From assembly GCA_902774075.1 (NCBI GenBank), contig CACYGT010000008.1, forward strand, positions 1 through 37,116: a stretch of 37,116 bases of DNA. The letters are read 5' to 3'. Source of the DNA: an uncultured Bacteroidales bacterium (GTDB lineage Bacteria; Bacteroidota; Bacteroidia; Bacteroidales; Paludibacteraceae). Below, in pieces: positions 1,408-36,862 of the stretch (position 1 is the stretch's first letter; every line of letters begins with the position of its first letter). A program made the translations under genes and the position numbers. The notes under the pieces were generated by a model. The model did no database searches. It was given only the letters and a program-made list of their open reading frames with translations, and had not been told where the DNA came from.

Positions 1408-2379
1408 TCAATGATAAAAACGCGTTCCTGGCAGGCACGAGAACGAGTCAATAATACCGACTACCTTCGTCTCGTCCATCACCACCAGCGTGTGGATCGA
1501 ATAGTGATTCATCGTCTCGCCGGCCTCCACGATCTTCGCGTTCTTGTTTATCGTCTTGGGGTTCTTACTCATGATCGTCTCTACCGGTGTAGCAAAGAAC
1601 GCAGGACCTAATTTCTGCATCGCGCGACGGATGTCGCCGTCTGTGATAACACCCACCAATGCGCTGTCTTTCAGCACGATACCTACACCGAGTTTGCCAT
1701 TTGTAACAATCTCTATCGCCTCTCCCATCGGTGTCTCGGGTTTCAAGAGCGGCAGGTTCTCCGTGAACATCACATCTTCTACTTTTGCCAGCAGTTTGCG
1801 TCCTAGATCTCCTCCCGGGTGTAAGCGTGCGAAGTCTGTCGGTTGGAAATGTTTGGCCTCAATCAGTGCGCAAGCGAGTGCGTCGCCAAGTGCCAAAGTA
1901 GCGGTCGTCGAAGACGTCGGCACGAGGTTCAAGGGATCAGCCTCACGCTCCACGGCTACGTTTAGATGAACGACCGAATAGCGCGCCAGCAGACTCTCCG
2001 GGTTACCCGAGATACCTATAATAGGTATCTGCTTGGCCTGAATAAGTGGCAAGAACCGCAATAACTCTTCGGTAGCTCCCGAATAAGAAATCGCCAGTAC
2101 GAGGTCTTTCTCGCATAACATACCAAGGTCTCCGTGATAGGCGTCCAGGGGGTTCAAGAAGAATGCCGGCGTACCTGTTGAAGCGAATGTTGCAGCGATC
2201 TTAGAACCGATATGTCCGCTTTTGCCGACACCCGTCACGACGATTTTACCTTGGCAGTCCCGAATCAGTTCCACGGCCCGCAGGAAGTCTTCGTCCAGCC
2301 GTCCGACCAGCGCCTCTATCGCCTTCGCCTCGCATTCAAGGCACTCTTTCGCTTTGGTAAGAATATCCATCTTTTTCAT
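1408..2379 (-). CDS. kdsD: Arabinose-5-phosphate isomerase, KpsF/GutQ family (SIS + two CBS domains)
   Basis: This 323-residue protein has the full KpsF/GutQ architecture. An N-terminal SIS sugar-isomerase domain (about 35-190) carries GVGKSGHIG at 50-58, LDAYHGDLGM around 78-87 and SYSGATEE at 98-105. A pair of CBS domains follows (about 200-315). It converts ribulose-5-phosphate to arabinose-5-phosphate, the first committed step to Kdo. The C-terminus (IIDSFSCLPGTRFYH) is slightly longer than the CBS fold needs. The start could be ATG 2379 (MKKMDIL) or ATG 2370 (MDIL); the first lies inside a heptad repeat that also carries the upstream gene's stop codon 3 bp away. A perfect TTTATCA-A-TGATAAA palindrome at 1404-1418 spans its stop and the gap to kdsC. 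Confidence 0.93.
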   Translation of the reverse strand: MKKMDILTKAKECLECEAKAIEALVGRLDEDFLRAVELIRDCQGKIVVTGVGKSGHIGSKIAATFASTGTPAFFLNPLDAYHGDLGMLCEKDLVLAISYSGATEELLRFLPLIQAKQIPIIGISGNPESLLARYSVVHLNVAVEREADPLNLVPTSSTTATLALGDALACALIEAKHFQPTDFARLHPGGDLGRKLLAKVEDVMFTENLPLLKPETPMGEAIEIVTNGKLGVGIVLKDSALVGVITDGDIRRAMQKLGPAFFATPVETIMSKNPKTINKNAKIVEAGETMNHYSIHTLVVMDETKVVGIIDSFSCLPGTRFYH

Positions 2380-2403
2380 CTTTCAGTTTTCACCTTTCAC
2401 CTT
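2374..2403 (-). repeat. Heptad repeat at glycosyltransferase/kdsD junction (GGTGAAA type)
   Basis: Read on the minus strand, degenerate GGTGAAA units (GGTGAAA, GGTGAAA, ACTGAAA, GATGAAA) encode the last residues of the glycosyltransferase (KVKGEN). They also contain its TGA stop and provide the first ATG of kdsD. Confidence 0.85.
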
Positions 2404-3528
2404 AATAAACGCACGCGTCATATTCGCCCATGCGTACTTGGTTTTCTCTTTTTGCAGGTATTTTGTGAACGCCGCCTGTCTATTGTTGGTAAAATAGTCC
2501 AGCAAGTCCTCGGAGATAGCCTCAGCTGTCGGGGCACATGCATAGCCCATCTTACCGTTATGAACGATCTCGCCCAAGCCGCCGACGTTGGTAACAAGCA
2601 TAGGTTTCTCAAAATGGAACGCTACCTGCGTCACACCGCTCTGCGTGGCGGTTTTGTAGGGTTGAACGATCAAGTCTGCCGCACCGAAATACTTTCTTAG
2701 GTCACCGTCCGGAATAAACTCATTTCGCACGATCACTCTGTCTTTCAGGCTATTAGCCTCTATCTGCGTACGGTATTTTTCTTCATCCTCATAGAACTCT
2801 CCGGCGATGATTAACTGCAAGTTCGGCAGTTGTTCTTTCACTTTTCCGAAAGCGTCTAATAGCAGATCGAGACCTTTATAGGCCCGCACGAGTCCAAAGA
2901 AAAGCATATAGTCTTTCTTGGCGTCCAAACCCAGCGCTGCACACGCCTCTTTCTTGCTCATCTGCTCGCCATAATGGTCATAAATCGGATGGGGCGAGAA
3001 GGTCTTTGGGCTCTTGACTCTTGACTCTTGACTCTCGACTCTCTCTATATCACCCACTACACTTTCTGAAAGCGCCACAAAGCCGTCCTGACTCTTTACA
3101 AAGTACGGAGCAAAGAGCTTGTCCAGTATATTCGGTTCGTGCGGTATCATATTGTGAACCAGCGCGATACAGCGAGTCTTACCGTTCTTCTTCGCCATGC
3201 GCGAAATCAGTCCGTACGCCGGCGCAAAGAATGACATCCAATAGCAGCAGATCAGCATATCCGGCGCAGCTTTGCGAATCGCTCTGCCTACCCGCAGCCA
3301 GTTAAACGGATTACAGGAGTTCAGTTCGCGGCGAATGACCAGCCCTTCCGGTGCCGGTTCGCTCGTATATTGCGTCTTGCCGGGGAAGAGGAAAGACGGA
3401 TACTGCAAGGTAAACGTCCACATCTCCACTTCGTGACCTTCCGCCACAAACTGCTTTGCCAGACGCTCATTGAACGTTGCCAACCCGCCTCTGTACGGCC
3501 ATGATGTGCCTAAAATAATAACTTTCAT
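2383..3528 (-). CDS. GT4-family glycosyltransferase
   Basis: The 381-residue protein has the two-Rossmann GT-B layout. The N-terminal acceptor half begins MKVIILGTSWPYRGGLATFN, with the GG loop near residues 14-15. The C-terminal donor half has LFFGLVRAYKGLDLLLDAF and, near the end, IVQPYKTATQSGVTQVAFHFEKPMLVT, the region where the GT4 E-x7-E motif normally sits. It is expected to transfer a sugar from a nucleotide donor at the cytoplasmic face of the membrane. Kdo genes next door suggest a surface-glycan role, but donor and acceptor cannot be told. Its ATG overlaps the preceding stop as ATGA (4 nt). Residues about 162-174 (ERVESQESRVKSP) are encoded by a GACTCTT heptad tract between the two domains, and the last residues by a GGTGAAA tract. 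Confidence 0.88.
   Translation of the reverse strand: MKVIILGTSWPYRGGLATFNERLAKQFVAEGHEVEMWTFTLQYPSFLFPGKTQYTSEPAPEGLVIRRELNSCNPFNWLRVGRAIRKAAPDMLICCYWMSFFAPAYGLISRMAKKNGKTRCIALVHNMIPHEPNILDKLFAPYFVKSQDGFVALSESVVGDIERVESQESRVKSPKTFSPHPIYDHYGEQMSKKEACAALGLDAKKDYMLFFGLVRAYKGLDLLLDAFGKVKEQLPNLQLIIAGEFYEDEEKYRTQIEANSLKDRVIVRNEFIPDGDLRKYFGAADLIVQPYKTATQSGVTQVAFHFEKPMLVTNVGGLGEIVHNGKMGYACAPTAEAISEDLLDYFTNNRQAAFTKYLQKEKTKYAWANMTRAFIKVKGEN
3009..3047 (-). repeat. Intragenic heptad repeat in the glycosyltransferase (GACTCTT type)
   Basis: About five CTCTTGA/CTCTCGA units (plus-strand reading) in tandem with period 7, wholly inside the GT4 gene. The tract stays open and encodes ERVESQESRVKSP at residues about 162-174, in the linker after the N-terminal domain. 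Confidence 0.9.
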
Positions 3529-4232
3529 AAGTCCTCTTTGTACGTGATTTTACGGTTTGCCTCTTCGCCGGGGACGATCACGACAGGCACTCTGGGTGCA
3601 TATTTGCGTACGATACCGGCATCGTCGGTTGCTATCACTTCATCCTCCGCCAGCGCCTTTACATACGCGTCAAAAACGACCTCATATTTAAATGCCTGCG
3701 GCGTCTGTGCCCGCATATATTCGCTTCGCGAAGGAACACTATTCACTTTCACCTTTAACCTTTCACCTTTCACCTTATAGAGCGTATCCGTCACCGGCAC
3801 TGCCACCGTCACCGCATCATTCCTCTCCAAGGCCTCAGCGATATCGGCTAATATTCGTTGACTTACAAACGGCCGCGCGGCGTCATGGAACCACAAACTG
3901 ACATCAGACGGCTGATCGCTGAACGCCAAGATTGCATGCCAGGACGACTCCCATCGTTCGTCTCCGCCGGGTATGATCTGCGACACTTTGCGCCAGGTGT
4001 TCTGCTCACACAGACGCTTCGCGTCTTCCATGAAATCCGGGTGCATCACGATGGCTATCTCGTCGATAGCGGGCGCCGCCTCAAAGGCGTCCACCGAGTG
4101 CTCTAATATAGAACGCCCGTCGTCCAGCGGCAGTAACTGCTTCGGGGTCTTACCGCCTACCCGGCTACCTGTTCCTCCGGCTAATATGATGGCTATGTTT
4201 CTCAAATCTAAAATCTCAAATCTAAAAGGCAT
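3525..4232 (-). CDS. IspD/TarI-family cytidylyltransferase
   Basis: Family motifs are clear: the glycine-rich CTP loop (IILAGGTGSRVGGKTPKQ, 16-32), HDAARPF at 116-122, VPVTDT at 145-150, RSEYMRAQTPQAF at 169-181 and a C-terminal TDDAGIVRK. IspD makes CDP-methylerythritol for isoprenoid (MEP) synthesis, and ispH is present at 15965. The close relative TarI makes CDP-ribitol for surface polymers, and the Kdo/glycosyltransferase operon makes that a real alternative. Residues about 153-163 (KVKGERLKVKV) come from a GGTGAAA heptad tract in the hairpin before the RS..AQTPQ motif. Start choice is open: ATG 4232 overlaps the thiL stop by 11 bp and would translate a heptad tract as FRFEILDLR. A TTG at 4205 inside that tract gives MRNIAIILAGG, a more natural N-terminus. 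Confidence 0.85.
   Translation of the reverse strand: MPFRFEILDLRNIAIILAGGTGSRVGGKTPKQLLPLDDGRSILEHSVDAFEAAPAIDEIAIVMHPDFMEDAKRLCEQNTWRKVSQIIPGGDERWESSWHAILAFSDQPSDVSLWFHDAARPFVSQRILADIAEALERNDAVTVAVPVTDTLYKVKGERLKVKVNSVPSRSEYMRAQTPQAFKYEVVFDAYVKALAEDEVIATDDAGIVRKYAPRVPVVIVPGEEANRKITYKEDL
3744..3777 (-). repeat. Intragenic heptad repeat in the IspD-like gene (GGTGAAA type)
   Basis: On the coding strand: GGTGAAA, GGTGAAA, GGTTAAA, GGTGAAA, with flanking partial units. It encodes VKGERLKVK. A 30-bp stretch is identical to the tract at 31821-31853 in the S1/P1 nuclease gene and is read in the same frame. Confidence 0.93.
4200..4227 (-). repeat. Heptad repeat at thiL/ispD junction (GATTTGA type)
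   Basis: On the coding strand: GATTTGA, GATTTTA, GATTTGA in tandem. The tract begins directly at the thiL stop (TAG) and offers a TTG (4205-4203) as a possible ispD start. Confidence 0.85.
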
Positions 4233-5244: not shown

Positions 5245-5353
5245 AATATGCCTAATTTAGCGTGCAAAGATAGTATAAAAAGTCGAAAGTAGAAAGAGGA
5301 AAGGATAAAATTTTCGAAAAAACACTCTTTTTCTTTAAAAAACGCGCGCGCTC

Positions 5354-5384: not shown

Positions 5385-5401
5385 CGGGCTTTTTATGTGT
5401 T

Positions 5402-6010
5402 ATGATAGAATATATTAAAGGAATATTGACGGATTTGAACCCGACGCAGGCGGTGGTAGAAGCAGCCGGTGTGGGGTACTCGATCGCTATTACGCTGCCC
5501 GGTTATTCGGCTTTGGTAGGTAGCGAAAACAAAGAAGTGAAGTTGTTTATCACGGAGGTCATTCGTGAGGACGCCCATGAGTTATACGGCTTTGCCGTAC
5601 GTGCCGAGCGCCAGCTCTTCGAACTGCTGATGACCGTCAGCGGTGTAGGCGCGGCAACTGCACGTATGATCATGTCGGCTTTCTCGGCTGAAGAACTGCG
5701 TATGCTGATTGCTACCGGTAACACCAAAGCGATGGCGAAGGTCAAGGGCCTTGGCTCCAAGACCGCACAGCGTATCATCGTGGATCTGAAGGACAAAGCC
5801 CTTAAGATTGACCTTGGCGGTGACCCGACCGAACTGCCGCTGGGTGACTTCGAACCCGAAGACAACAGCGTGAAGGCCGAAGCTGTCAGTGCCCTCACTA
5901 TGCTCGGCTTCCCCTCTGCCGCAAGTGCCAAAGCCGTTGATAAGATCCTCAAGTCCGATCCGACTCTCAAAGTAGAGGCCGTGATTAGAGAAGCACTGAA
6001 GATGCTTTGA
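5402..6010 (+). CDS. ruvA: Holliday junction DNA helicase subunit RuvA
   Basis: At 202 residues this is the usual RuvA length. The N-terminal OB-fold (MIEYIKGILTDLNPTQAVVEAAGVGY) is followed by the tandem helix-hairpin-helix region (LFELLMTVSGVGAATARMIMSAF and KVKGLGSKTAQRIIVDLKDK). A linker leads to the small C-terminal RuvB-contacting domain (about 155-202, EAVSALTMLGFP). RuvA binds four-way junctions and loads the RuvB motor for branch migration in recombination repair. It has its own promoter and is separated from sprA only by a 45-bp heptad tract, so the two are probably co-transcribed. The ruvA-sprA pairing is, to my recollection, common in Bacteroidota. Confidence 0.96.
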   Translation: MIEYIKGILTDLNPTQAVVEAAGVGYSIAITLPGYSALVGSENKEVKLFITEVIREDAHELYGFAVRAERQLFELLMTVSGVGAATARMIMSAFSAEELRMLIATGNTKAMAKVKGLGSKTAQRIIVDLKDKALKIDLGGDPTELPLGDFEPEDNSVKAEAVSALTMLGFPSAASAKAVDKILKSDPTLKVEAVIREALKML

Positions 6011-6070
6011 TATTTGATATTTGATATTTGAGATTTGAAATTTGACATTTAAGATTTGAAATTTAAATTT
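6009..6070 (+). repeat. Heptad repeat filling the ruvA-sprA spacer and forming the sprA start
   Basis: Nine or so units with period 7: GATATTT three times, then GAGATTT, GAAATTT, GACATTT, AAGATTT, GAAATTT. It begins at the ruvA stop and runs into the first codons of sprA, supplying its TTG start. Confidence 0.93.
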
Positions 6071-12000: not shown

Positions 12001-13600
12001 TAGCGAGTCACTCACCGTCCACGTCACCGACTCGGCCGGTAAAACGATACCTGTCAGCTTCAAGCCGGCGGGTAACACCAAGATCAGCATCACCCCGAAG
12101 AGCTCGTGCGCCAAGGCGACCATCACCGTCACCACACGCGATCCGAACTACCGCACACCGGCGCAGGTAACAGGCGATGTCTTTGCGTACCTCGGTACGA
12201 TGATCCGTCGTCTGCAGATCACCTATCGCGAGACCAACTCCATGACCGTACCGGGCTTTGAGCCCGAGGCGGGCTTCATGGGACAGTGCAAGACCGCCGG
12301 CGGATATGCGCCGGGCTTTGACTTCGCCTTTGGTTTCATACCGAATGACTTCATGGAGCGTGCGACACGAAACAACTGGCTCAGCGGTGATACGACGGTG
12401 GTACAGCCTGCTACCCGTGCACATACTTCGGATATTGATATCAAACTCACGCTCGAACCGCTGCCTGGATTTAAGATCCAACTCAACGGTAAGCGCTACT
12501 ACGCGAACTCGACCTCTATCACCTACTCCTACGACCAGTTGCAGGAGAACATGACGGGTTCGTTCAATATCTCGCAGGTCGCTATCGGTACCATCTTCAG
12601 CCATGTCGGTTCCCAGGAAGAGAACTTCGCCAACAGTGCGTATGACCAGTTCATCGCCAACCGAGATATCCTCCTCGAGCGTGTGCAGGGTCAGTACACC
12701 GGTGTCACGCTGCCGTCCAAGGGCTTTATGAGTAATATACCGATGGATACCAAGTACGACCCCAACAAACACGGGCGTGTCAACCGTAACTCCGCCGATG
12801 TGCTCGTACCGGCGTTCCTGGCTGCCTACACCGGCCGCGACCCCAACACCATCGGTCTGGATCCCTTCCTGGGTATCCTGCAGATCCTGCCTAACTGGTC
12901 TGTGACCTACGACGGCCTGGGCAAACTGCCTTGGCTCCGCGACCACTTCAAGTCCGTCACCCTCACTCACGCTTATACCTGTAAGTACGCCATCGGCTCC
13001 TTCGGTTCGTACTCCACCTGGGTCGGTGTGGATGACAAGAACAAGAACGTCGGTTTCGTGCGCGATGTGACGACCGACGCACCCACGCCGTCTTCGGCGT
13101 ATGACATCACCAACGTCACCATCACCGAGGCGTTCTCACCGCTTATTGGTCTGAATATGACGATGAAGAACTCGCTGAATTTCAAAGCCGAGTACCGCAA
13201 GCAGCGTAACCTCGCGCTCAACGTCACCAGCGTGCAACTGACCGAAGGACACACGTCGGAGTTCGTGCTCGGTGCAGGTTATACGATTAAGAACCTCAAC
13301 TTCATCGCCAAGAAGAAAGACGGCGGACAGAAGAAAGTATCCAATGACCTCAAGTTGCAGGTCGATGTGTCGTACAAAGATGTCAAGATGCTGCTCCGTA
13401 AGGTAGAGGATAACATCACGCAGGCTTCGTCCGGTAACCGCGTTATTGCGGTCAAGGTATCTGCCGACTACGTGCTGAGCCAGAAGATCAACCTCCAGCT
13501 CTTCTACGACCATCAGGGCACTACCCCGCTCCTCTCGTCGTCCTACCCCGTGCGGTCGGATAATATAGGTCTGAACATCAAACTGATGCTGACAAGATAG
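6056..13600 (+). CDS. sprA: T9SS outer-membrane translocon SprA (Sov homologue)
   Basis: This 2514-residue protein has the size and sequence character of SprA/Sov, the giant beta-barrel pore of the type IX secretion system that passes cargo across the outer membrane. It opens with a signal peptide (KFKFLYIVFALLTLTSVPVYAQ). Long stretches of alternating hydrophobic/aromatic strands and SprA-like segments follow, for example DVGTAYIDDFESTTTNIDVHY and repeated SGEVWINELRLSQF-type motifs. It ends in strand-like GLNIKLMLTR. The only start that keeps the signal peptide is TTG 6056: an in-frame TAA lies two codons upstream and the next ATG is far inside. This TTG belongs to the heptad repeat. A 1553-codon antisense open frame (6104-10765) is a by-product of codon bias. 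porQ, another T9SS gene, lies nearby. Confidence 0.95.
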   Translation: MKFKFLYIVFALLTLTSVPVYAQKTLKQLVAEERARKAAEKEAKEGKKPTPSATTPAANSKDSTLESAANYVTETDSAIWAPTKVRQLGTQNYGELTQPTSSLDLQDPANITTTVEYQPETGTYIIRTRMGDTDITTPYMLTQDEYNQYAERQLMHRYWQQKIGEVEHNNEKKFDITDMKFNIGPADKVFGPGGVQLKMQGSAELLFGFKHQYIDNPSLTARARNNNIFDFDEKIQASIQGKVGTKLNFNLSYNTEASFSFDQQNLKLNYKGEEDDIIQSIEAGNVTMDLPSSLIRGSKALFGIKTNLKFGKFRIQALISQQNSEAQTVSSKGGAQMTKFDIACDTYDENRHFFLSHFFRDNYEKAMETAPYVSSGFTINKVEVWITNKRGTYDQARNIVAFTDLGESNDHQQKDVWGGVKGAAPDNNTNSLYNAVRATPFRELDNTTVALASLDMEGGVDFEKIESARLLSSSDYTLNTSLGYISLKAALNQDEVLAVAYEYTYNGRVYQVGEFSTDGSEELKTPNALALKMLKSSANAPARKNRGTWDLMMKNIYSLGATSIQSDKFELYVTYRNDSVGTDVQYLNEGPISGKQLLRVMNLDRLDQKHNASPDGRFDFLEGLTVYASSGKIIFPVLEPFGSHLASVLDNKALADKYCYQILYDSTLVIAQEMTEKNKFHLTGKYKGTNGSEIRLGAMNVPRGSVTVTAGGATLIENVDYTVDYTMGTVTILNTAILESGTNVDVKLENQSTFSMQRKSLFGAHLEYEFNKDLVIGGTIMHLRERPLTTKVNTGSEPLANTIWGVNGSWKTEMQWLTNAIDKIPWITATAPSTFSINAEFAHLIPGHTRDVGDVGTAYIDDFESTTTNIDVHYPSYWFLASTPVAFDEAKDINRITYNKNRAHIAWFSVDPIFGYPQTNTPAHIKNDLVALSDHRTRIVYQEEIYPNRQEPSNVDTKLAVLNLAYYPEERGQYNISADEINSLGRMTNPKQRWGGLMRRLDNSDFEKANIEYIQFWLMDPALTNPDGYDGELYFNFGDVSEDILHDGKKAFEHGLPVSDAETGKLDSTIWGYVPRTTSTTVAFSNEPGSRIKQDVGLNGMSTEQEKTFSTYRNYLTELQSRVSADVWNQWSADRFSPRNDPAGDNYHYYRGTDFDEEEVSILDRYKHYNGTEGNSPAVEQQTESYGTAATLNPDIEDINQDNTLNEYEKYYQYRVILRPDMMEVGRQHITEKKIRKVTLRNGETVDVAWYQFKIPLRGDSATMQRVGSIRNWKSIRFMRMYLTGFEHETHLRFATLDLVRGEWRQYTRDLAPIGVPVNTGASIDVQTVNIEENNTRTPVNYVLPPGVSRQTDPGQAQLIAQNEQALVLRVANLSPHDARAVYKNTGYDMRQYKNLQMFVHAEKLESLDPDLKDGDLTCFIRLGTDLRNNYYEYEIPLRLTEPGIYNNNSATDRLKVWPKENMFDFPLKALTAAKIARNKAKRAGTEGVSNTIPYVIYDDANDKPQNKITVLGNPTLEDVSSIMVGVRSAGQHDASGEVWINELRLSQFNEQGGVAAMANAALSISDIAQLNVAGRLETAGYGSIESNVLDRNMDNFYQISVSAALEGGRLFPEKAKIQMPLYVSYSNETTSPDYDPLDTDVKLAETLDTYTTKAEKDSIKQLSNTVHESTSFSLSNLKVNHHYTKKRDLFVDPANFSISASYNKQNEHSPELETNLTTDHKGSFQYAYNFNPKPWEPFAKMEKVQKVKFLKEFNLYYLPQSWAFNTNMHRTFSHMKMRDLAGTAPGEMDLTYSKDFTWDRHVDIKYDLTKNMKFSFQSAMNAIIDEGQYTPEILNGRYFDAEFNHDKYEAWRDTIQHSLAKWGKPYTYQQVFTASWNVPFNRVPGLDALSANASYNANYNWTRTASTTSGIDRGNTVSSLQTWQVDGGINFETWYGKSKYWKSMTQRYTGRSAKRAFRPKTYTQTSALTKGEALEITHRLNSESLTVHVTDSAGKTIPVSFKPAGNTKISITPKSSCAKATITVTTRDPNYRTPAQVTGDVFAYLGTMIRRLQITYRETNSMTVPGFEPEAGFMGQCKTAGGYAPGFDFAFGFIPNDFMERATRNNWLSGDTTVVQPATRAHTSDIDIKLTLEPLPGFKIQLNGKRYYANSTSITYSYDQLQENMTGSFNISQVAIGTIFSHVGSQEENFANSAYDQFIANRDILLERVQGQYTGVTLPSKGFMSNIPMDTKYDPNKHGRVNRNSADVLVPAFLAAYTGRDPNTIGLDPFLGILQILPNWSVTYDGLGKLPWLRDHFKSVTLTHAYTCKYAIGSFGSYSTWVGVDDKNKNVGFVRDVTTDAPTPSSAYDITNVTITEAFSPLIGLNMTMKNSLNFKAEYRKQRNLALNVTSVQLTEGHTSEFVLGAGYTIKNLNFIAKKKDGGQKKVSNDLKLQVDVSYKDVKMLLRKVEDNITQASSGNRVIAVKVSADYVLSQKINLQLFYDHQGTTPLLSSSYPVRSDNIGLNIKLMLTR

Positions 13601-13651
13601 TGTAAGGTGTAAAGTGTAAGGTGTAAGGTGTAAAGTGTATGGTGTATAAAG
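13600..13651 (+). repeat. Heptad repeat between sprA and the NadR-like gene (GTGTAAG type)
   Basis: Seven units GTGTAAG/GTGTAAA/GTGTATG, period exactly 7. It starts at the last base of the sprA stop and contains the ATG (13639) of the next gene. Confidence 0.93.
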
Positions 13652-15285: not shown

Positions 15286-15950
15286 TAATTGTTGCCATCG
15301 ACGGCTATAGCAGCTGTGGCAAATCGACGATCGCCAAAGCGCTGGCCAAATACGCCGGCTATACCTATGTCGATACCGGCGCTATGTACCGCGCCATCGC
15401 CCTCTATACCCTGCACCATCACCTGACCGAAGAGGCAGATATCATCGCTGCACTGCCGGCTATCCAAGTCGGCTTCGTCCTCGTAGACGGCGCGCAGCAT
15501 GTCACCCTCAACGGCGAAGACATCGAGTCGCAGATCCGTACCCTTGAGGTCGGCAACGCTGCCAGCCGTGTCTCGGCCATCAAAGAGGTACGTGCTTTCC
15601 TGGTTGCCCAGCAGCAGAAGATGGGACTGGAGAAAGGCATCGTCATGGACGGCCGCGACATCGGTACGGTGGTCTTCCCGCAGGCCGAACTCAAGCTCTT
15701 CCTGACCGCTACTCCCGAGGTACGCGCACAACGTCGCTACGACGAGCTGCTGGAGAAAGGCCAGACGCCGGACTTCAGTGCAGTGCTCGCCGATGTCAAT
15801 GACCGCGACTACCGCGATACCCACCGCGCTGAGTCGCCTCTCCGCCAAGCCGAGGATGCCATCGTCATCGATAACTCCAACCTCACGCCCGACGAGCAGA
15901 TGAAGGTCATTTATGGCCTCTTTGATAAAATCATAAATTTGAAATCATAA
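15258..15950 (+). CDS. cmk: Cytidylate kinase
   Basis: This is a standard (d)CMP kinase. The P-loop IDGYSSCGKST is followed by YVDTGAMYRAIAL, the CMP-binding region (TLNGEDIESQIRTLEVGNAASRVSAI), GIVMDGRDIGTVVFPQAELKLFLTA and a lid RRYDELLEKGQ with DVNDRDYRDTHRAESPL. It phosphorylates CMP/dCMP with ATP in the cytoplasm. The start may be ATG 15258 (MVNEQMVNKIIVAIDG) or ATG 15273 (MVNKIIVAIDG); both lie in a heptad-type tract, and the second gives the usual N-terminus. Its C-terminus (INLKS) and TAA stop lie inside the next tract, which also supplies the ispH start 15 bp downstream. Confidence 0.95.
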   Translation: MVNEQMVNKIIVAIDGYSSCGKSTIAKALAKYAGYTYVDTGAMYRAIALYTLHHHLTEEADIIAALPAIQVGFVLVDGAQHVTLNGEDIESQIRTLEVGNAASRVSAIKEVRAFLVAQQQKMGLEKGIVMDGRDIGTVVFPQAELKLFLTATPEVRAQRRYDELLEKGQTPDFSAVLADVNDRDYRDTHRAESPLRQAEDAIVIDNSNLTPDEQMKVIYGLFDKIINLKS

Positions 15951-15967
15951 ATCATAAATCATAAATG
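15929..15967 (+). repeat. Heptad repeat at cmk/ispH junction (TCATAAA type)
   Basis: TCATAAA, TTTGAAA, TCATAAA, TCATAAA, TCATAAA, TGG. It encodes the last residues and stop of cmk and the ATG of ispH. Confidence 0.9.
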
Positions 15968-16861
15968 GTTGTATCGATTGATACAAACTCCGGTTTCTGT
16001 TTTGGTGTGACACGCGCCATCAACGCAGCGGAGAGCGAACTGGAGAAGGGCGCACTCTACTGCTTGGGCGATATCGTGCATAACGGTCAGGAAGTAGCGC
16101 GGCTGGAACTCAAAGGCCTCGCGACCATCGACTACGACGACCTGCGTACGCTCCCTGCCCACTCCCGTGTGCTGCTCCGTGCGCACGGCGAACCGCCTTC
16201 TACCTACTGGATAGCGCAGCAACGCGGCATCGAGATCATCGACGCCACCTGTCCGGTCGTCAAGAAACTGCAGGACCGTATCCGCGCGTGCTATGAGCTC
16301 CATCGCAACGATGAAGGCCGGGCTCCCCAGATCGTCATCTACGGCAAACCCGGACACGCCGAAGTCATCGGACTCCAGGGCCAGACCAACAACACCGCCA
16401 TCGTCATCGAGTCCGTCGACCAACTCCACCTCCTCGACTTCTCCCGCCCTATCTACCTCTTCTCCCAGACCACCAAATCCGTCGAGGGCTTCCATTCCCT
16501 CGTCGAAGCCATCCAATCTCAAATCTCCAATCTCAAATCTCCAATTGCGCTGGAAGCGCACGACACGATATGCAGGAGTGTAGCAAATCGAGTGAAGGAG
16601 TTGCAGGAGTTTGCGAAGGCGAACGACATCGTCTTCTTTGTAGGTGGTACTAAAAGCAGTAATGCCAAGGTGCTATATAAAAATTGTGTTGAGGCAAACC
16701 CCAACACAATTTTCATATCTTCTCCCGACGAAGTTGATAAAATAAACCTTTCAACTTTCACCTTTCCCCTTTCAACTTTAAAGATCGGGATTTGCGGAGC
16801 GACGAGCACGCCTTTATGGCTTATGGAACAGGTACGGGATAAACTTTCCCGTAACCCGTAA
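15965..16861 (+). CDS. ispH: 4-hydroxy-3-methylbut-2-enyl diphosphate reductase (IspH/LytB)
   Basis: The three cluster cysteines are present: C12 (SGFCFGV), C96 (DATCPVV) and C203 (DTICRS). So are the substrate histidines H39 (VHN), H74 (RAHGEPP) and H131 (GHAEV). IspH is the last enzyme of the MEP pathway, making IPP and DMAPP with a 4Fe-4S cluster. Total length (298) is normal even though three heptad tracts touch it. One encodes QSQISNLKSPI (about 184-194) just before C203. One encodes NLSTFTFPLSTLK (about 261-273) just before GICGATSTPLWLMEQV. A CGTAACC tract forms the final residues (RNP) and the stop. The start ATG also lies in a tract. All essential motifs are intact, so the enzyme is probably functional. 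Confidence 0.95.
   Translation: MVVSIDTNSGFCFGVTRAINAAESELEKGALYCLGDIVHNGQEVARLELKGLATIDYDDLRTLPAHSRVLLRAHGEPPSTYWIAQQRGIEIIDATCPVVKKLQDRIRACYELHRNDEGRAPQIVIYGKPGHAEVIGLQGQTNNTAIVIESVDQLHLLDFSRPIYLFSQTTKSVEGFHSLVEAIQSQISNLKSPIALEAHDTICRSVANRVKELQEFAKANDIVFFVGGTKSSNAKVLYKNCVEANPNTIFISSPDEVDKINLSTFTFPLSTLKIGICGATSTPLWLMEQVRDKLSRNP
16513..16545 (+). repeat. Intragenic heptad repeat 1 in ispH (AAATCTC type)
   Basis: CAATCTC, AAATCTC, CAATCTC, AAATCTC, CAATT; period 7. It encodes QSQISNLKSPI before the third cluster cysteine. It is the reverse-complement class of the GATTTGA tracts. Confidence 0.92.
16746..16780 (+). repeat. Intragenic heptad repeat 2 in ispH (CTTTCAA type)
   Basis: CTTTCAA, CTTTCAC, CTTTCCC, CTTTCAA, CTTTAAAG. 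It encodes NLSTFTFPLSTL. The class is the reverse complement of the GGTGAAA tracts, read here on the opposite strand. Confidence 0.92.
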
Positions 16862-16877
16862 CCCGTAACCCATAACC
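16848..16877 (+). repeat. Heptad repeat at the ispH/malQ convergent end (CGTAACC type)
   Basis: CGTAACC three times, then CATAACC. It encodes the ispH C-terminus and stop and fills the gap to the hairpin. An inverted copy of the class sits in the pta leader at 24289-24319. Confidence 0.9.
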
Positions 16878-20575: not shown

Positions 20576-22417
20576 ATGAAAACGTTTTTAGCGCTCATAT
20601 TACTGGTTGCGAATCTCTCCCTCGACGACATCATCGGGGATATTTACAACCGCATGACTGAACTGTCGGAAGTCGATTATGAGCAACTCCAGACGGATCT
20701 CTATGCCCTGGCGGAGTCGCCGATAGACCTCAATGATGCCTCCGAGGAAGAACTAAGCCAACTGCCTTTTCTCTCCTCGCGTCAGATAGACGATATCCTC
20801 CTCTACGCCCACCGACATCCGTTTGAGTCGCTATATGAGTTACGTCTGATCCCCAGCCTGACGGATTACGAGATCCGCGACCTTTTGCCTTTCGTTCAAA
20901 TCACAAATCAGAAATCTGAAATCATAAATGCACCTTCCGCGAAAGAGGTCTTCACCAAGGCTCAGCACGAGATCCTCGCGCGGGTGGATGCACGCAACAT
21001 AGAGGCATTCGAAGGCACCGATCCGATCTATGTGCAGACGCGCTATCGGTTTGATTACCAGCGTCGTGTCACTTTTGGCGCCCAACTGCGCCGACCGCAG
21101 GGAGGCCAAGCAGAGGACTTGCAGTATGGCGCTTATCTCCGCCTGCGAGACGTTGCGCCCCATCTTCATTCGCTCGTAGCAGGTAACTTCCAGGCATCCT
21201 TCGGGCAAGGCCTCGTCTTCTCACCCGTCTTTCACTCCGGTAAGTCCATGTACGTGCAGACGATAGGACAGAGCGCCGAAGGGATCCGCCATTATTCTTC
21301 CGTTGATGGCGAGAGTCTGCACGGCGCTGGAGTCACACTGCGGTGGGAGTGGAACAAGAAGACACGCCTCGATATCTCCGCGCTCTATTCGCTCAAACGC
21401 GCCAATGACTCCACCTGGCATCACCTCATCGGCGCGAACGTCACCGTGCGCCATAAGCGGTTCGAACTGCAAGTAACAGCAGCGGAAAACATATGGTCGG
21501 ACAGCATCGCCCCCTATCGCAACACGACCTATAACAGTCATTATTTCCGTGGAACCAACCAAGCCGTCTTGGGTGCCTCCTTCCGCTATAACCACGGTTG
21601 GTTCGATCTCTTCGGAGAAGTGGCGACAGCGCAGAACAAGGAATGGGGCTTTGGTACAATCGTCGGCAGCCGTTTCTATCCCACTTCCGGGGTCAGCCTC
21701 ATCGCCCTCTATCGCTTTTATTCTCCTTGGTTCGACAACGCGCTTGGATATGCATTCTCGGAGAGTTCACGCCTCGGTGATGAGAACGGTGGATACCTCG
21801 GCTTCGACATCACCAGCCTCAACCATTGGCGCTTCTCCGGATACGGCGATGTGTTCTATTTCAGCGGCCCCAAATACGGCATTCCGGACAGCTGCACGCT
21901 TGGTTACGATGCTCTCGCCGAGGTACAACACATCCGCGAAAACTGGCGTATCTCTCTCCGTGCCCGTGCTCGGCAGAAAGGTACCGCCATCTACTCCGCA
22001 CGGCTGCTCTTCGAGTGGCGACGAGGCGGCTGGAGCCTAAACACCACAGCGGACTTCAACCATACGCCTCTCAACGGCGATTCCGTTTTCCATTATGGCC
22101 TGTCTGTCGCGCAGGACGTAGCGTACCGTTTTGCACAAGCGCCGGTGAGCATACGCGGACGCCTGCAGTTCTTCGACGCCCGCGAGTGGGCTAACCGCAT
22201 CTATACCTACGAGCACGACGTCCTCTATGCCTTCTCGATCCCCGCTGTCTATGGTTTTGGAGGCAAAGCTTATCTCTGCCTCCAGTGGCAGATAATTCCT
22301 CAGCTCGCCCTTTATCTCAAACTCAGCGAGACCATCTACGAAGCCTCCTGGGCCTCCGCCCATAACCGTCCTCAAACCCGGACGGATATCCACCTCCTCT
22401 TCCGCGCAAAACTATAG
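20576..22417 (+). CDS. Helix-hairpin-helix domain outer-membrane beta-barrel protein
   Basis: The 613-residue protein starts with a short signal-like segment (MKTFLALILLVANLS). Two ComEA-like helix-hairpin-helix units follow: DLNDASEEELSQLPFLSSRQIDDIL at about 51-75 and ESLYELRLIPSLTDYEIRDLLPFV at 84-107. From about residue 120 the sequence alternates aromatic and polar residues, as in an outer-membrane beta-barrel, ending DIHLLFRAKL. HHH-plus-barrel proteins are widespread in Bacteroidota with no settled function; DNA binding or uptake is only a guess from the HHH domain. Residues about 107-119 (QITNQKSEIINAP) are encoded by a CAAATCA heptad tract exactly at the domain boundary. The promoter box sits 4 bp before the ATG. 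A strong terminator follows. Confidence 0.82.
   Translation: MKTFLALILLVANLSLDDIIGDIYNRMTELSEVDYEQLQTDLYALAESPIDLNDASEEELSQLPFLSSRQIDDILLYAHRHPFESLYELRLIPSLTDYEIRDLLPFVQITNQKSEIINAPSAKEVFTKAQHEILARVDARNIEAFEGTDPIYVQTRYRFDYQRRVTFGAQLRRPQGGQAEDLQYGAYLRLRDVAPHLHSLVAGNFQASFGQGLVFSPVFHSGKSMYVQTIGQSAEGIRHYSSVDGESLHGAGVTLRWEWNKKTRLDISALYSLKRANDSTWHHLIGANVTVRHKRFELQVTAAENIWSDSIAPYRNTTYNSHYFRGTNQAVLGASFRYNHGWFDLFGEVATAQNKEWGFGTIVGSRFYPTSGVSLIALYRFYSPWFDNALGYAFSESSRLGDENGGYLGFDITSLNHWRFSGYGDVFYFSGPKYGIPDSCTLGYDALAEVQHIRENWRISLRARARQKGTAIYSARLLFEWRRGGWSLNTTADFNHTPLNGDSVFHYGLSVAQDVAYRFAQAPVSIRGRLQFFDAREWANRIYTYEHDVLYAFSIPAVYGFGGKAYLCLQWQIIPQLALYLKLSETIYEASWASAHNRPQTRTDIHLLFRAKL
20895..20930 (+). repeat. 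Intragenic heptad repeat in the HHH-barrel gene (CAAATCA type)
   Basis: CAAATCA, CAAATCA, GAAATCT, GAAATCA, TAAATG; period 7, in frame, encoding QITNQKSEIIN between the HHH and barrel domains. Confidence 0.9.
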
Positions 22418-24288: not shown

Positions 24289-24319
24289 GGGTTACCGGTT
24301 ACGGGTTACGGGTTATGGG
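24289..24319 (+). repeat. Heptad repeat in the pta leader (GGTTACG type)
   Basis: GGTTACC, GGTTACG, GGTTACG, GGTTATG, period 7. It is the inverted orientation of the tract at 16848-16877. It lies within the predicted 5' untranslated region. Confidence 0.88.
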
Positions 24320-25348: not shown

Positions 25349-25397
25349 ATTTGAAATTTATGATTTCAAATTTATGATTTCAAATTTCAAATTTATG
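25349..25397 (+). repeat. Heptad repeat filling the pta-ackA spacer
   Basis: A 14-bp double unit (AAATTTATGATTTC) occurs twice, followed by AAATTTC and AAATTTATG. Each AAATTTATG copy offers an ATG; the last is the ackA start. Confidence 0.92.
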
Positions 25398-26585
25398 AAG
25401 ATATTGGTTTTGAACTGCGGTAGCAGCAGTATTAAATACAAGCTCTTCAACATGGAGAGCAAGTCCGTATTGGCACAAGGCGGTATCGAGAAGATCGGTC
25501 TGCCCGACTCGTTCCTGCAAGTGAAGTTAGCGAACGGAGAGAAAGTGAAGTTCGAGAAACCGATGCCGGAGCATACGGTAGGTATCGAGTTGATTCTGGA
25601 GAAGTTGGTGGACCCGGAGATCGGTGTCATCAAGGACCTCAAACAGATCGACGCAGTCGGTCACCGCGTAGTGCACGGCGGCGAGAAATTCAACAAGAGT
25701 GTGCTGATCACGCCGGAGGTGAAGAAAGAGATCATCCAGTGCGTAGAGTTGGCTCCGCTGCACAACCCCGCTAACCTCAAGGGTATCGATGCGATCGAGA
25801 AGATACTGCCGGGTGTACCGCAGGTAGCGGTCTTCGACACGGCGTTCCACCAGACGATGCCGGACTACGCGTATATGTACGCGATCCCGTACGAGCTGTA
25901 TGAGAAATACGCGATCCGTCGTTACGGCTTCCACGGCACCAGCCACCGTTATGTCTCTGCTCGCGTATGCGAGTTCCTCGGTGTCGATCCGAAGAAGCAG
26001 AAGATCGTGACCTGCCACATCGGCGGAGGCGGCAGTTGTACGGCTGTGCTCAACGGCGAGAGCGTAGATACCTCGATGGGCCTGACGCCGGTAGAGGGTC
26101 TGGTGATGGGTACCCGCGCGGGCGACCTGGACCTCGGTGCAGCGACCTTCATCATGGACAAAGAGCATCTGACGACGGCTGAGTTCAATAACCTGGTGAA
26201 TAAGAAATCCGGTTTGCTCGGTGTATCGGGCGTGTCCAGCGACTGCCGCGATATCGAGGCTGCCATCAATGCCGGCAACAAACGTGCGGACCTGGCGCGT
26301 AAGATGTTCATCTACCGTACAATCAAGTACATCGGCGCGTATGCAGCCGCTATGAACGGTCTGGATATCCTTGTCTTCACGGCCGGTATCGGCGAGAACG
26401 ACCCCTATATCCGTGCTGAGATCATGAAGGGCCTCAGTTTCCTCGGTATCGAGGTAGATGACGAGGCGAACAAAGTGCGCGGTGAGGAGCGGATCATCTC
26501 CAAGAAGGGCAGCAAAGTGACCGTCTGCCTGATCCCGACGGATGAAGAGCTGATGATCGCCAGCGATACAGCGGCTTTAGTATAA
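25395..26585 (+). CDS. ackA: Acetate kinase
   Basis: Starting at ATG 25395 (MKILVLNCGSSSIKYKLF) gives 396 residues, the normal AckA length. An earlier in-frame ATG (25374) would only translate repeat sequence (MISNFKF). The acetokinase family patterns are present: N-terminal NCGSSSIK, HRVVHGGEKF, the FDTAFHQTMP segment, RYGFHGTSHRYVS, HIGGGGSCTAVLNGESVDTSMG and the C-terminal FTAGIGENDPYIR. The enzyme converts acetyl phosphate and ADP to acetate and ATP. It is co-transcribed with pta. Confidence 0.97.
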   Translation: MKILVLNCGSSSIKYKLFNMESKSVLAQGGIEKIGLPDSFLQVKLANGEKVKFEKPMPEHTVGIELILEKLVDPEIGVIKDLKQIDAVGHRVVHGGEKFNKSVLITPEVKKEIIQCVELAPLHNPANLKGIDAIEKILPGVPQVAVFDTAFHQTMPDYAYMYAIPYELYEKYAIRRYGFHGTSHRYVSARVCEFLGVDPKKQKIVTCHIGGGGSCTAVLNGESVDTSMGLTPVEGLVMGTRAGDLDLGAATFIMDKEHLTTAEFNNLVNKKSGLLGVSGVSSDCRDIEAAINAGNKRADLARKMFIYRTIKYIGAYAAAMNGLDILVFTAGIGENDPYIRAEIMKGLSFLGIEVDDEANKVRGEERIISKKGSKVTVCLIPTDEELMIASDTAALV

Positions 26586-26692: not shown

Positions 26693-26739
26693 GATTGAAG
26701 ATTGAAGATTGAAGATTGAAGATTTGAGATTTTAGATTT
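26693..26739 (+). repeat. Heptad repeat upstream of the GH13 gene (GATTGAA type)
   Basis: GATTGAA four times, then GATTTGA, GATTTTA, GATTTTT; period exactly 7. It ends 6 bp before the start codon at 26745. Confidence 0.93.
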
Positions 26740-26744
26740 TTACC

Positions 26745-28385: not shown

Positions 28386-28399
28386 CTGATTTTCAAAAC

Positions 28400-28465
28400 A
28401 TTTAAGATTTAAATATTTAAGATTTAAAGATTTAAGATTTAAAGATTTAAGATTTGGAGATTTTT
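28400..28465 (+). repeat. Heptad repeat filling the GH13-UbiA spacer and forming the UbiA start
   Basis: Alternating ATTTAAG and ATTTAAAG units (period 7-8), about nine in all, ending AGATTTGGAGATTT. It supplies the TTG start of the UbiA-family gene. Confidence 0.93.
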
Positions 28466-31466: not shown

Positions 31467-32264
31467 ATGAGACGTTATTTATCATTCGTTATAGTATGCG
31501 CACTTATGTGCGTATATTCTCTTCCCGTGTGGTCTTGGGGTCAGGAGGGACACCGAATTATTGCTAAGATCGCGTACGACAACCTGAGTCGCAAGGCCAA
31601 GAAATCGGTGGATCAGACGCTGGGTAAGCAGGGTATCATCTACTGGGCGAACTGGCCGGACGAGATCAAATCCGATACGATCTACAAGCAGAGTATCCAG
31701 GACGGCTGGCACTACCAGGACTTCGACGGCGGTCTGAGCGACAGTGCGGTGGTAGCGGCGCTGACGGACTACCCGAAAGAGGGAGGAAATCTCTTTCGAG
31801 CCTTGGACAGCCTCGAAAGAGAGGTGAAAGGTGAAAGGTTAAAGGTGAAAGAGCATACCTTGCGGTTCATTGTTCACTTGAGCGGCGACCGGTACTGCCC
31901 GATGCATACGGCGCATATGGACGACAAGGGCGGAAATGCGGTCAAGATGAAGTGGTTCAACAACCACACGAACCTCCACTCCGTTTGGGATAGCAAACTG
32001 ATTGACAGCCAGGGATACAGTTATACCGAGTACGCCGAGAAGCTGGAGATCGAGTACGCGGCTGAGAAGAAAGCCATCGAGGCGATGAGCGACGCGGAAC
32101 TACTGCTGCACAACTACCATTTCACGGAAGATATCTACGCCTACCAGCAGATCTGGGACGGCAATACCTATCATTATATATACCGCTGGCACATTCCCTG
32201 CGAGCGGCAACTCTATATCGCCGGCATCCGCTTGGCCAAACTCTTAAACGAGATATACAAATAA
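31467..32264 (+). CDS. Secreted S1/P1-family nuclease
   Basis: Start ATG 31467 gives 265 residues with a signal peptide (MRRYLSFVIVCALMCVYSLPVWS). Cleavage there leaves Trp24 as the mature N-terminus, as in P1 nuclease. The zinc ligands appear in order: W24, H29 (GQEGHR), D65 (WPDEI), H82 (WHYQD), H137 and D141 (FIVHLSGD), H147, H171 and D175 (NLHSVWD). The family cuts single-stranded DNA and RNA and removes 3'-phosphates. It should act in the periplasm or outside the cell. Residues about 119-128 (EVKGERLKVK) come from a GGTGAAA heptad tract between the H82 and H137 ligands. The TonB receptor starts 21 bp downstream, so they are probably one operon. Confidence 0.93.
   Translation: MRRYLSFVIVCALMCVYSLPVWSWGQEGHRIIAKIAYDNLSRKAKKSVDQTLGKQGIIYWANWPDEIKSDTIYKQSIQDGWHYQDFDGGLSDSAVVAALTDYPKEGGNLFRALDSLEREVKGERLKVKEHTLRFIVHLSGDRYCPMHTAHMDDKGGNAVKMKWFNNHTNLHSVWDSKLIDSQGYSYTEYAEKLEIEYAAEKKAIEAMSDAELLLHNYHFTEDIYAYQQIWDGNTYHYIYRWHIPCERQLYIAGIRLAKLLNEIYK
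31821..31853 (+). repeat. Intragenic heptad repeat in the S1/P1 nuclease gene (GGTGAAA type)
   Basis: GGTGAAA, GGTGAAA, GGTTAAA, GGTGAAA with flanking GAGA. It encodes VKGERLKVK. A 30-bp identical stretch, in the same reading frame, lies in the IspD-like gene at 3744-3777 on the other strand. Confidence 0.95.
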
Positions 32265-32285
32265 CATATAACAAACTCTCTATTT

Positions 32286-35039: not shown

Positions 35040-35041
35040 GC

Positions 35042-35083
35042 AATGGAAAATTGAAAATTGAAAATTGAAAATTGGAAATTGTT
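35042..35083 (+). repeat. Heptad repeat between the TonB receptor and lipoprotein genes (AAAATTG type)
   Basis: GAAAATT units four times, then GGAAATT, filling the spacer up to the lipoprotein start (ATG 35084). It shares 27 identical bases with the tract inside the UPF0104 gene at 19816-19850. Confidence 0.93.
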
Positions 35084-36832
35084 ATGAAAAAGATATATAT
35101 CATTGGAATCGTTGCATTCGCACTGGCCGCTTGCTCGAACTATTTCGACGAGCACTATCTGGACAACGGCAACACACCGGTCACGGACGTGAAGACGGTG
35201 TATTATACCTTGACGGATAATGATTATAAGCTGATTGCTAAGAACGTCACGAACATAGAAATCGCTCGAACAGCGGATTCTATAGCCGGAGATACCGTCA
35301 ACAAACCGGCTCAAAAGGCATTAGAGGCTATCGGAAAAGACTGCTATTTCACCGAGGCCGCTACCGCTGATAATTATCTGCTGCCCTTTGTGGCGAACAA
35401 GTATATCTACCTCAGTACCGGTTCGCTGGCGTATGTGACCTATAAACAGTACGAAGCGAACACCTCGGCGCGTAGTTATACCATGTTCAACGACGACTAT
35501 AAGGAGATATGGGACGGCGTAGCCAACTATTATATCTCTCCGGGGTCTGAGGAGAAGTTTTCAAAATGGATAGATAACAAATTCAATGACGTAGCGAACG
35601 GTGCGTATATGTTCATCACCTATAATTATCAGAACATCGAGCCGCTGCCGTATGTGACAACTATTGCGGACATTCTCTATGCCCGAGATGCGATTGAGCA
35701 CGAGATCACCGCGTACGTAGGTACGATCGTCGTACCGGCATCCGGTGCGTTCTGGCTCGTAGACGGTCCGGACTCCGTGTTCGTCAAGACGCTCATGGAT
35801 CAGGAGGGTAACAAGCGCAACGTGCTGAGCAACAACAATATTCACACCGGCGATCGGATCACTATCCACGCCACCTTTGATCCCAAAGAGACGGACCAAC
35901 CGACTTTAGTCAATGCGGTCTATATCAGTCATGTACCCGCTAATGCACCGAGACGCGCGCCCGAAGAAGTGATTAAGGAAGTACGCACCAAACTGTACCA
36001 ATACAATTTGCAGAAGGCACACTGGGAGGAGCAGTCGAAAGAGATCTTCTTGCCGCAGTCGGTATATGAATCCCTCGGATCGGATAAGATAGAAGATCCG
36101 GAAACGGTGATTGATATCTATCTGCGCAATAAATATCCGTACGCCGTAAAAGATGAGTCGTATCTGGTGGCTTATTATAGCGGAACGAAATACGTGCTGG
36201 CCAAATATAGCTTTGATGGCGAACATTTCGTAGCGGAGCCCAATACGTCAGAAGAGACGATGTCGTTTGAGATCAAAGAAGATACATGGAAGGCAGACTT
36301 ATCCACCTACCTCAAGGCTGCGTTTGTAGGTGAAGGACCGGGTAAGTTCACGATTCAACACGTTGAATTAGGTGAGTTGAACTATATCTGGCGTTACCAA
36401 GCCTTGTATGGCATGACCGCATCCGCGTATGTCAGCGGTACCAACCACCGCGTAGAGGACTGGCTCGTTTCACCCAACATCAAATTGAAGAAGAGCGTGA
36501 AGCCGCAGCTGACCTTCGACCATGCGGTTCGTTACGGAAACGTAGAGGATAACCCCAAATGGTTGACTGTTTGGGTAACAGATAACTTCACCGGCGATGT
36601 GACAACTACCGAGTGGAAACAATTGGAGTGGCACGAAGAATTGCCGGATGGCAGTAACTGGATCTTCCGCTCGGCAGGCGTATGGGACTTGAGCGAATAT
36701 AACGGCAAGACGATCGTTATTGCCTTCCGCTACAACACCAACATTGACGGAGTAGAAGTACCCTCTGCTCCTACTTGGGAGATTCAGAACTTACTCCTCG
36801 CAGAGCCTACTCCCGTAGTAGAAAATGAATAA
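35084..36832 (+). CDS. Surface lipoprotein with internal OB-fold-like and C-terminal choice-of-anchor-J domains
   Basis: The start is ATG 35084 (MKKIYIIGIVAFALAACSNYF); the frame from 35072 only adds repeat sequence. A lipobox (LAAC) puts the lipidated Cys at about residue 17. The 582-residue protein has an N-terminal region of unknown fold. At about 206-284 there is a stretch that looks like a nucleic-acid-binding-type OB-fold (ITAYVGTIVV, GAFWLVDG, GDRITIHATF, PTLVNAVYISH). The C-terminal beta-sandwich (about 440-575) resembles choice-of-anchor-J/cleaved-adhesin modules (VEDWLVSPNIKL, IVIAFRYN, PTWEIQNLLL). It probably sits at the outer membrane and partners the TonB receptor in ligand capture. 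The domain labels are by eye and not confirmed. A TGAATAA heptad tract forms its last codon and stop. Confidence 0.78.
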   Translation: MKKIYIIGIVAFALAACSNYFDEHYLDNGNTPVTDVKTVYYTLTDNDYKLIAKNVTNIEIARTADSIAGDTVNKPAQKALEAIGKDCYFTEAATADNYLLPFVANKYIYLSTGSLAYVTYKQYEANTSARSYTMFNDDYKEIWDGVANYYISPGSEEKFSKWIDNKFNDVANGAYMFITYNYQNIEPLPYVTTIADILYARDAIEHEITAYVGTIVVPASGAFWLVDGPDSVFVKTLMDQEGNKRNVLSNNNIHTGDRITIHATFDPKETDQPTLVNAVYISHVPANAPRRAPEEVIKEVRTKLYQYNLQKAHWEEQSKEIFLPQSVYESLGSDKIEDPETVIDIYLRNKYPYAVKDESYLVAYYSGTKYVLAKYSFDGEHFVAEPNTSEETMSFEIKEDTWKADLSTYLKAAFVGEGPGKFTIQHVELGELNYIWRYQALYGMTASAYVSGTNHRVEDWLVSPNIKLKKSVKPQLTFDHAVRYGNVEDNPKWLTVWVTDNFTGDVTTTEWKQLEWHEELPDGSNWIFRSAGVWDLSEYNGKTIVIAFRYNTNIDGVEVPSAPTWEIQNLLLAEPTPVVENE

Positions 36833-36862
36833 TGAATAATGAATAATGAATAATGAATAATT
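36826..36862 (+). repeat. Heptad repeat after the lipoprotein gene (TGAATAA type)
   Basis: Five TGAATAA units in tandem. The first supplies the stop codon of the lipoprotein gene. It leads into AATAATTATTATTTTTT, which could act as a weak terminator. Confidence 0.93.

Follow-up and report, generated by a model that had tools for sequence, protein, structure and literature searches.

Seven-base tandem repeat tracts in Bacteroidales, recurring at shared sites with changing repeat units among related species

Tandem repeat tracts of the window

Our analysis concerns the window, a whole stretch of 37,116 nucleotides from an uncultured Bacteroidales bacterium (assembly GCA_902774075.1, contig CACYGT010000008.1), and the degenerate tandem repeats with a period of seven bases (hereafter tracts) that are scattered through it. 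The source genome (G000) is a 1.80-Mb metagenome assembly of 95 contigs (85.75% complete), whose nearest named relatives are Paludibacteraceae/Bacteroidales, mostly from herbivore rumen and gut. A preliminary description of the window had listed 22 tracts sharing a period but not a sequence and had taken them to suggest a common process rather than the copying of one mobile sequence. The tracts are located at gene junctions, in spacers, and inside genes, as follows.

2374..2403, minus strand: TTTCACC (GGTGAAA on the minus strand), at a gene junction near 2380, found by Tandem Repeats Finder (TRF)
3011..3043, minus strand: CTCTTGA, in a GT4 glycosyltransferase gene (2383-3528, minus strand), between two Pfam domains
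3742..3776, minus strand: TTCACCT (AGGTGAA on the sense strand), in ispD (3525-4232, minus strand), inside the IspD domain
4200..4227, minus strand: 14-bp unit TCTCAAATCTAAAA, at the start of ispD
6006..6064, plus strand: TTTGATA/ATTTGAN, at the ruvA stop codon and the next start
13600..13647, plus strand: GTGTAAG, filling the spacer behind a 2514-aa open reading frame
15928..15966, minus strand: AAATCAT, at the cmk-ispH junction
16512..16545, plus strand: 14-bp unit TCCAATCTCAAATC, in ispH (site 1), adjoining a gap relative to Aquifex IspH (3dnf)
16748..16779, plus strand: CTTTCAA, in ispH (site 2), at gaps relative to 3dnf
16848..16877, no strand assigned: CCCGTAA, between the convergent ispH and GH77 genes
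19817..19850, minus strand: AAATTGA, in the LPG_synthase_TM gene, residues ~261-272, a site that recurs in relatives
20897..20929, plus strand: CAAATCA, in an HHH_3 protein gene (20576-22417)
24289..24319, plus strand: GGGTTAC, upstream of the PTA gene in the interval that separates divergent genes
25349..25398, plus strand: 14/21-bp unit (ATTTCAAATTTATG), in the PTA-acetate kinase spacer
26693..26740, plus strand: GATTGAA, upstream of an alpha-amylase-family gene
28396..28463, plus strand: mixed 7/8 tract with a 15-bp unit AAAGATTTAAGATTT, in the spacer before the UbiA gene
31822..31851, plus strand: AGGTGAA with one unit GGTTAAA, in an S1/P1-nuclease-like gene
35042..35081, plus strand: AATTGAA, in the spacer after a TonB-dependent receptor gene and at the start of the next open reading frame
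36824..36861, plus strand: perfect AATGAAT tract, at the stop codon of 35072-36832

Excess of period 7

The window was scanned with TRF and by an ungapped self-match scan, with local dinucleotide shuffles as the null. TRF returned 46 rows, dominated by period 7 and its multiples; counted by position, there were 19 loci of period 7, 14, or 21, the mixed 7/8 tract at 28396-28463 included, and a few more of period 6 and 8-15; the preliminary count was 22. The ungapped scan found 14 tracts of period 7 and one each of periods 8 and 11, compared with a mean of 0.0 period-7 tracts in 100 shuffles at the same threshold, and a looser threshold yielded 20 tracts against 0.04 in shuffles. The tracts of the window are real and beyond chance.

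The own-genome scan covered 802,728 bases of G000, window included, and recovered 99 tracts of period 7, 15 of period 14, and 3 of period 21 (117 in total), together with 10, 7, 13, and 6 tracts of periods 8, 9, 11, and 15, respectively. Period 7 alone exceeded periods 11 and 8 by 8- to 10-fold, and ten shuffles of the same bases contained no tract of period 7, 14, or 21. The excess of period 7 over other periods, whose absence the preliminary description had named as refuting its proposal, was present in these bases, and its account of differing units on both strands, within and between genes, was borne out. Tract density was higher in the window (16 in 37 kb) than in the genome (117 in 803 kb, including the window). 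The relatives' sample, consisting of loci from 80 separately assembled related species (1,502,076 bases in total), contained 224 tracts of period 7, 33 of period 14, and 10 of period 21. When five-unit windows were counted in our genome and the 80 loci by a rule that ignores unit order and scales the allowed mismatches with the period, period 7 gave 261, followed by periods 8 (22), 11 (12), 4 (8), 9 (6), 6 (3), and 5 (1).

Length, placement, and composition of the tracts

The modal length was four full units (68 of the 117 tracts in G000). Forty-five tracts lay well inside genes, 22 at gene ends, and 2 at sequence edges, while the intergenic ones separated co-directional genes in 36 cases, convergent genes in 9, and divergent genes in 3; the intragenic counts are upper estimates because genes were called as greedy longest open reading frames, giving a coding fraction (0.948) that is too high. 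The G-rich strand was the sense strand in 15 of the 45 deep-in-gene tracts, 11 of which had stops in two frames and one frame open, the open frame following from the gene calls and being secured by Pfam spans for ispD, ispH, the LPG-synthase-like (LPG) gene, and the nuclease gene. Such open-frame tracts often carry one altered unit, such as GGTTAAA for GGTGAAA in the S1/P1-nuclease-like gene and in the ispD tract at 3742..3776, which likewise has two frames with stops and one open. In many tracts of G000, each of the three frames of one strand contains a stop. Where the neighboring genes run in the same direction, the G-rich strand was sense in 21 cases, antisense in 14, and undecided in 1, a weak bias.

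The units are varied, as previously stated, although to deny the tracts any shared sequence went slightly too far: 314 tracts, orthologous copies included, draw on a limited vocabulary of 102 distinct canonical units, and AAAGTTG, the commonest, occurred 34 times. G and C tended to fall on opposite strands, with a minor-strand C share of 0.125 versus 0.219 ± 0.019 in our own tracts; the split was weaker for their distinct units (0.187 versus 0.232 ± 0.028) and amounted to 0.186 versus 0.249 ± 0.019 for the distinct units found in the 80 loci. Runs of GGG or CCC reached four in just 3 of the 117 tracts, which sets the tracts apart from G-quadruplex heptamers of the GGGNATC type. Mismatches between neighboring units comprised 38-42% transitions, versus 58-75% between species. 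A model in which the variable column of a tract holds a random letter was dropped, as three or more letters occurred there in just 4 of 52 tracts with a single variable column. Neighbor-correlation tests of slippage were not used, their result having shifted with the detection rule (detection bias).

Distribution among species and families

At least one tract was present in 69 of the 80 related loci, and because these species were assembled separately, the tracts are not an assembly error. Density varied within the genus, from none in 40 kb of either G008 or G011 to 8 in 40 kb of G007. Eight genomes from other families of the order held one tract in ~330 kb. Across 295 genomes drawn from Bacteroidales, two common words were present in 21 and 25 genomes; away from these pattern matches, tracts of the period-7 family were found in five of seven such genomes, on stretches that all came from contigs with pattern matches (a mild bias). 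G217 had 20 tracts in 100 kb, G049 had 9 in 60 kb, and G212 had 7 in 60 kb, while G230 and G258 had none in 40 kb each; in an eighth genome, G095, the sampled stretch contained one of its own pattern matches. A few rows of period 14 or 21 in the order-wide stretches were longer direct repeats, not heptamers. Collectively, the trait is patchy across unrelated Bacteroidales families. Separately, G230, which belongs to a different family and whose 40-kb sample is tract-free, has 55 matches to a control pattern, AGTTTANAGTTTANAGTTTA, another heptamer word.

Same sites, different words

A period-7 tract was found at ispH site 1 in 24 species, in a loop of the LPG gene in 23, and at ispH site 2 in 18 (clustered count); one mapping of the relatives' tracts to genes was limited to six window genes. 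The two IspH loops vary between species, and Aquifex IspH (3dnf) is gapped at both. At site 1, the interval measured 66 nt in 30 of 54 rows and was mostly 7-periodic, yet its words differed (AATCTCA, AATCACA, AATCAGC, AATCGAA), and some species carried octamer or 17-18-bp repeats instead. Of 66 loci, 35 had an LPG loop of 105 nt, tract-free loci of more distant species among them, so the tract in many species takes the place of loop sequence instead of extending it; two of the 66 loci were longer by 21 nt and one by 42 nt. An equal-length swap of the whole unit was seen in this loop between L070 (CCTTTCA) and L071 (CAATTTA). In GH77 genes of a few species, AGTCGAA-type tracts occupied three loops; compared with L093 and L099, which lack the tract, one of these loops was exactly 21 bp longer in L103, L113, and L116. 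One tract (HHH355) was identical in L084, L085, and L103 inside a shared patch of ~100 bp, indicating that recombination can carry tracts between species. New here is this recurrence at the same sites across species, both in spacers and within protein loops (IspH, the LPG-synthase-like protein, and others).

Other repeats accompany these sites. Octamer near-palindromic tandem repeats stand at ispH site 1 in sister species (CATGACGT-like in L071, TCGAGATC-like in L069), and L071 has related octamer words at two loci, namely ispH site 1 and the region upstream of GH77 (L070/L071). The last bases of the insert at ispH site 2 are often AATCCCGAC (e.g., L029, L072, and L080), which repeats the downstream gene sequence GTCGGGAT in inverted form and could pair with it in a hairpin; versions with both arms changed (GCCGAC..GTCGGC) occur in L081 and L138. 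In many loci, the flank of site 1 holds a small hairpin whose two arms both differ between species (GCGCTGGAAGCGC in some, GTACCGGAGGTAC in others); still other species encode FEYHD at this place. In the LPG loop of L069, L076, L078-L080, L082, L084, and L108, period-9 CTAGG-rich stretches replace the heptamer tract. A CAGCGAAGCGGTCTTA-like repeat of 16-18 bp, possibly an interspersed repeat family, is present at several species' sites (ispH site 1 in L078 and L114-L116; site 2 in L091 and L123). In the window itself, period-9 (TGGCAAAAG, TGCCATTTA) and period-11 repeats lie at 707-760 and 846-889, just outside the range previously reported.

Length change and unit turnover with divergence

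One genome was taken per species and the closest pairs were ~5% apart, so comparisons are between sister species. Among 140 such comparisons, counted in both directions, 34 had no usable flank and 106 had both flanks; in the latter, the tract was identical and in place in 31, equal in length with differences in 37 (68 of equal length altogether), and unequal in length in 38. The unequal lengths comprised 6 that differed by multiples of 21, 1 that differed by 14 bp (a tract versus a different sequence), and 31 others that represent replacements. Most compared tracts keep their length, and some differ by exactly 21 bp.

Unit distance was analyzed for same-site pairs, 928 of 976 having both flanks. 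Below 10% local flank divergence, the unit was unchanged in 16 of 17 pairs. Of 32 pairs at 10-18%, 20 showed a distance of 0 or 1 and 12 a distance of 3 or 4, with no pair at 2. Beyond 30%, the mean distance (2.44) came near that of non-orthologous pairs (2.74). An apparent jump in units at 8-12% gene divergence was set aside as partly due to recombination, local flank divergence giving the cleaner picture.

Candidate enzymes

A dedicated enzyme, including a reverse transcriptase, had been suggested as a possible generator, for which our data offered no support: the RVT_1 domain had no match in G000 or in the tract-bearing genomes G001, G003, and G007, and the 7 of 21 genomes that encode it do not include G000, although gene absence there is not final at 85.75% completeness. 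Ku and the family-X polymerase thumb were found in none of 21 genomes. MutS occurred in every one of the 21, so its loss was rejected as a cause, and Y-family polymerase, with 19 of 21, showed no contrast between tract-rich and tract-poor genomes. Absence of the hairpin nuclease SbcD was considered after initial counts of 0 of 10 tract-rich against 5 of 11 tract-poor genomes, classes that were drawn from samples of 20 kb to 803 kb, with G002 (5 per 100 kb) weakly rich and the tract-rich genomes outside the genus chosen from pattern matches; a test fixed beforehand in the 295 order genomes rejected it (14 of 43 heptamer-positive versus 91 of 252 other genomes, p = 0.73).

Origin of the tracts

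We lean slightly toward regarding the tracts as heptanucleotide simple-sequence repeats at extreme density, produced by local duplication in 7-nt steps and then sieved according to what the site and the reading frame tolerate. Tandem duplications in place, preferably by 7 nt or its multiples 14 and 21, would turn tolerant sites, such as short spacers and protein loops, into 7-periodic tracts of ~4-5 units. In genes, survival would be limited to frame-compatible versions, with steps of 21 bp and with units that contain no stop in the reading frame. Finished tracts would be fairly stable, and short patches of homologous recombination may carry them between species; over longer times, new duplications or other inserts would overwrite them, so that the site stays while the word changes. 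The excess of period 7, the sharing of sites, the turnover of units with divergence, and some 21-bp differences are observations; that slippage or duplication generates the tracts and that the reading frame sieves them is what we infer. The differing units of same-site tracts in relatives suggest a 7-base duplication habit of the genome and not one mobile sequence, in support of the process originally proposed. Several observations weigh against this duplication account. Length differences by multiples of 7 made up just 7 of 38, and neither ispH site 1 nor the LPG loop had a single row with the length of a 21-bp contraction; their near-constant length despite changing units is less variable than plain slippage should make it. 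The lack of pairs at distance 2 under 10-18% divergence implies jumps beside gradual change, the transition-poor mismatches among neighboring units are not what point mutation of copies predicts, and the modest excess of imperfect stretches shared between tracts fits duplication poorly.

That excess bears on an alternative that we consider unlikely, in which tracts act as small cassettes whose copies enter other tracts or sites of the genome (ectopic gene conversion or a transposition-like process), a site being occasionally replaced wholesale. Twenty-three unlinked pairs of our own tracts have an imperfect 25-mer in common, and 33 share an imperfect 21-mer, compared with 18.5 ± 4.0 under a column-permutation null that reached this number in 0 of 300 runs; the real shared stretches are ~25-32 bp, the lengths first computed having counted both strands. 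In the GH77 gene of L103, two loops hold one and the same irregular AGTCGAA tract, nearly so in that of L116, and the L070/L071 swap could also be read as copying. However, the excess over the null is modest, which again favors a process over copying, and fades with length (24-mers, 20 versus 11.4, with 5 of 300 null runs as high; 28-mers, 6 versus 2.9, with 19 of 300), just 4 pairs within the 80 loci share an imperfect 25-mer, and L070 has almost the LPG stretch of L075, so that interspecies recombination can explain the jump. A stronger version of the cassette reading lost ground against the permutation null.

A broader possibility, which we regard as rather improbable, is that an active process in some Bacteroidales, whether an enzyme or the replication machinery, repeatedly overwrites tolerated sites of ~30 bp with 4-5 new 7-periodic units at near-constant length; if true, the overwritten spacers and loops of essential enzymes would be lasting hotspots of invented sequence. 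More doubtful still seems a dedicated enzyme or templated system that rewrites such stretches with 7-periodic DNA. Units changed at constant length (ispH site 1 and the LPG loop), the transition-poor variation, the four-unit preference, and the strand separation of G and C would suit it, whereas the gene searches above yielded no candidate and units hardly changed below 10% local divergence. We give least credence to selection for a function of 7-periodic DNA as a leader RNA, protein-binding array, three-frame stop, or flexible linker. The many tracts at gene junctions or with three-frame stops on one strand are consistent with it, and passages of MacGregor (PMC4679880) propose a translational role for TAACTGA repeats, but unit sequence is not conserved, the strand bias between co-directional genes is weak, and the scarcity of GGG/CCC runs argues against a general quadruplex role.

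Comparison with known systems

Heptanucleotide repeats are a known oddity without an established cause. Rickettsia palindromic elements are in-frame inserts at tolerated places of protein genes and consist of palindromic copies of one family; the heptamer tracts are alike in their in-frame insertion but are not one family. The STRR repeats of heterocystous cyanobacteria use few fixed words, and we know of no frequent placement of them inside essential genes. The earlier analogy to these cyanobacterial heptamers was apt in that several tandem heptamer words occur in one genome, as here; the host differs, the relatives here being Bacteroidales/Paludibacteraceae and not heterocystous cyanobacteria. 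Three tandem heptanucleotides are mentioned for Calothrix in a passage of PMC4692102.

GGGNATC heptamers of Xanthomonas and Nostoc are described in passages of Rehm 2015 (PMC4692102) as one G-rich word type with quadruplex potential, 11% (Xcc) and 7% (Xac) of them being intragenic. Our tracts resemble these in the preference for four units and in length and sequence variation between related species; they differ in their varied words and in the rarity of GGG/CCC runs, so a four-unit preference is possible without G-quadruplexes. TAACTGA direct repeats occur in Beggiatoaceae, cyanobacteria, and five Bacteroidetes, some of the latter with other heptamers beside them (MacGregor 2015, PMC4679880). 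They share with our tracts the heptamers near start codons, the three-frame stops in one orientation, and some Bacteroidetes hosts, but TAACTGA is one word, related heptamers being rarely repeated in the BOGUAY genome according to the same passages, whereas many words are used here. Given these five Bacteroidetes and the heptamer tracts in several unrelated families, the preliminary remark that no such system was known from Bacteroidales needs care. The open-licence literature yielded no study of heptamer arrays as a genome-wide Bacteroidales feature, which is weak evidence; passages of PMC12699852 report a high repeat density in Bacteroidota and do not single out period 7.

The closest likeness is to the heptanucleotide class of long simple-sequence repeats. 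In the Mrazek 2007 survey, as relayed in passages of PMC4679880 and PMC4692102, heptanucleotides reportedly outnumbered every other repeat category in most genomes, and polymerase slippage is proposed; our tracts are likewise longer than chance with 7 as the commonest unit length, and duplication in 7-nt steps agrees with the views published in those passages. The tracts appear to differ from that class in that many stand in ordinary genes, the site outlives the unit, and the tracts are short, with a mode of four full units. Enzymes such as IspH tolerate a succession of repeat-derived loop sequences, and with many related species, the same sites, and genes of known fold, the gain, loss, and replacement of units can be traced, which makes it testable how the 7-nt step arises.

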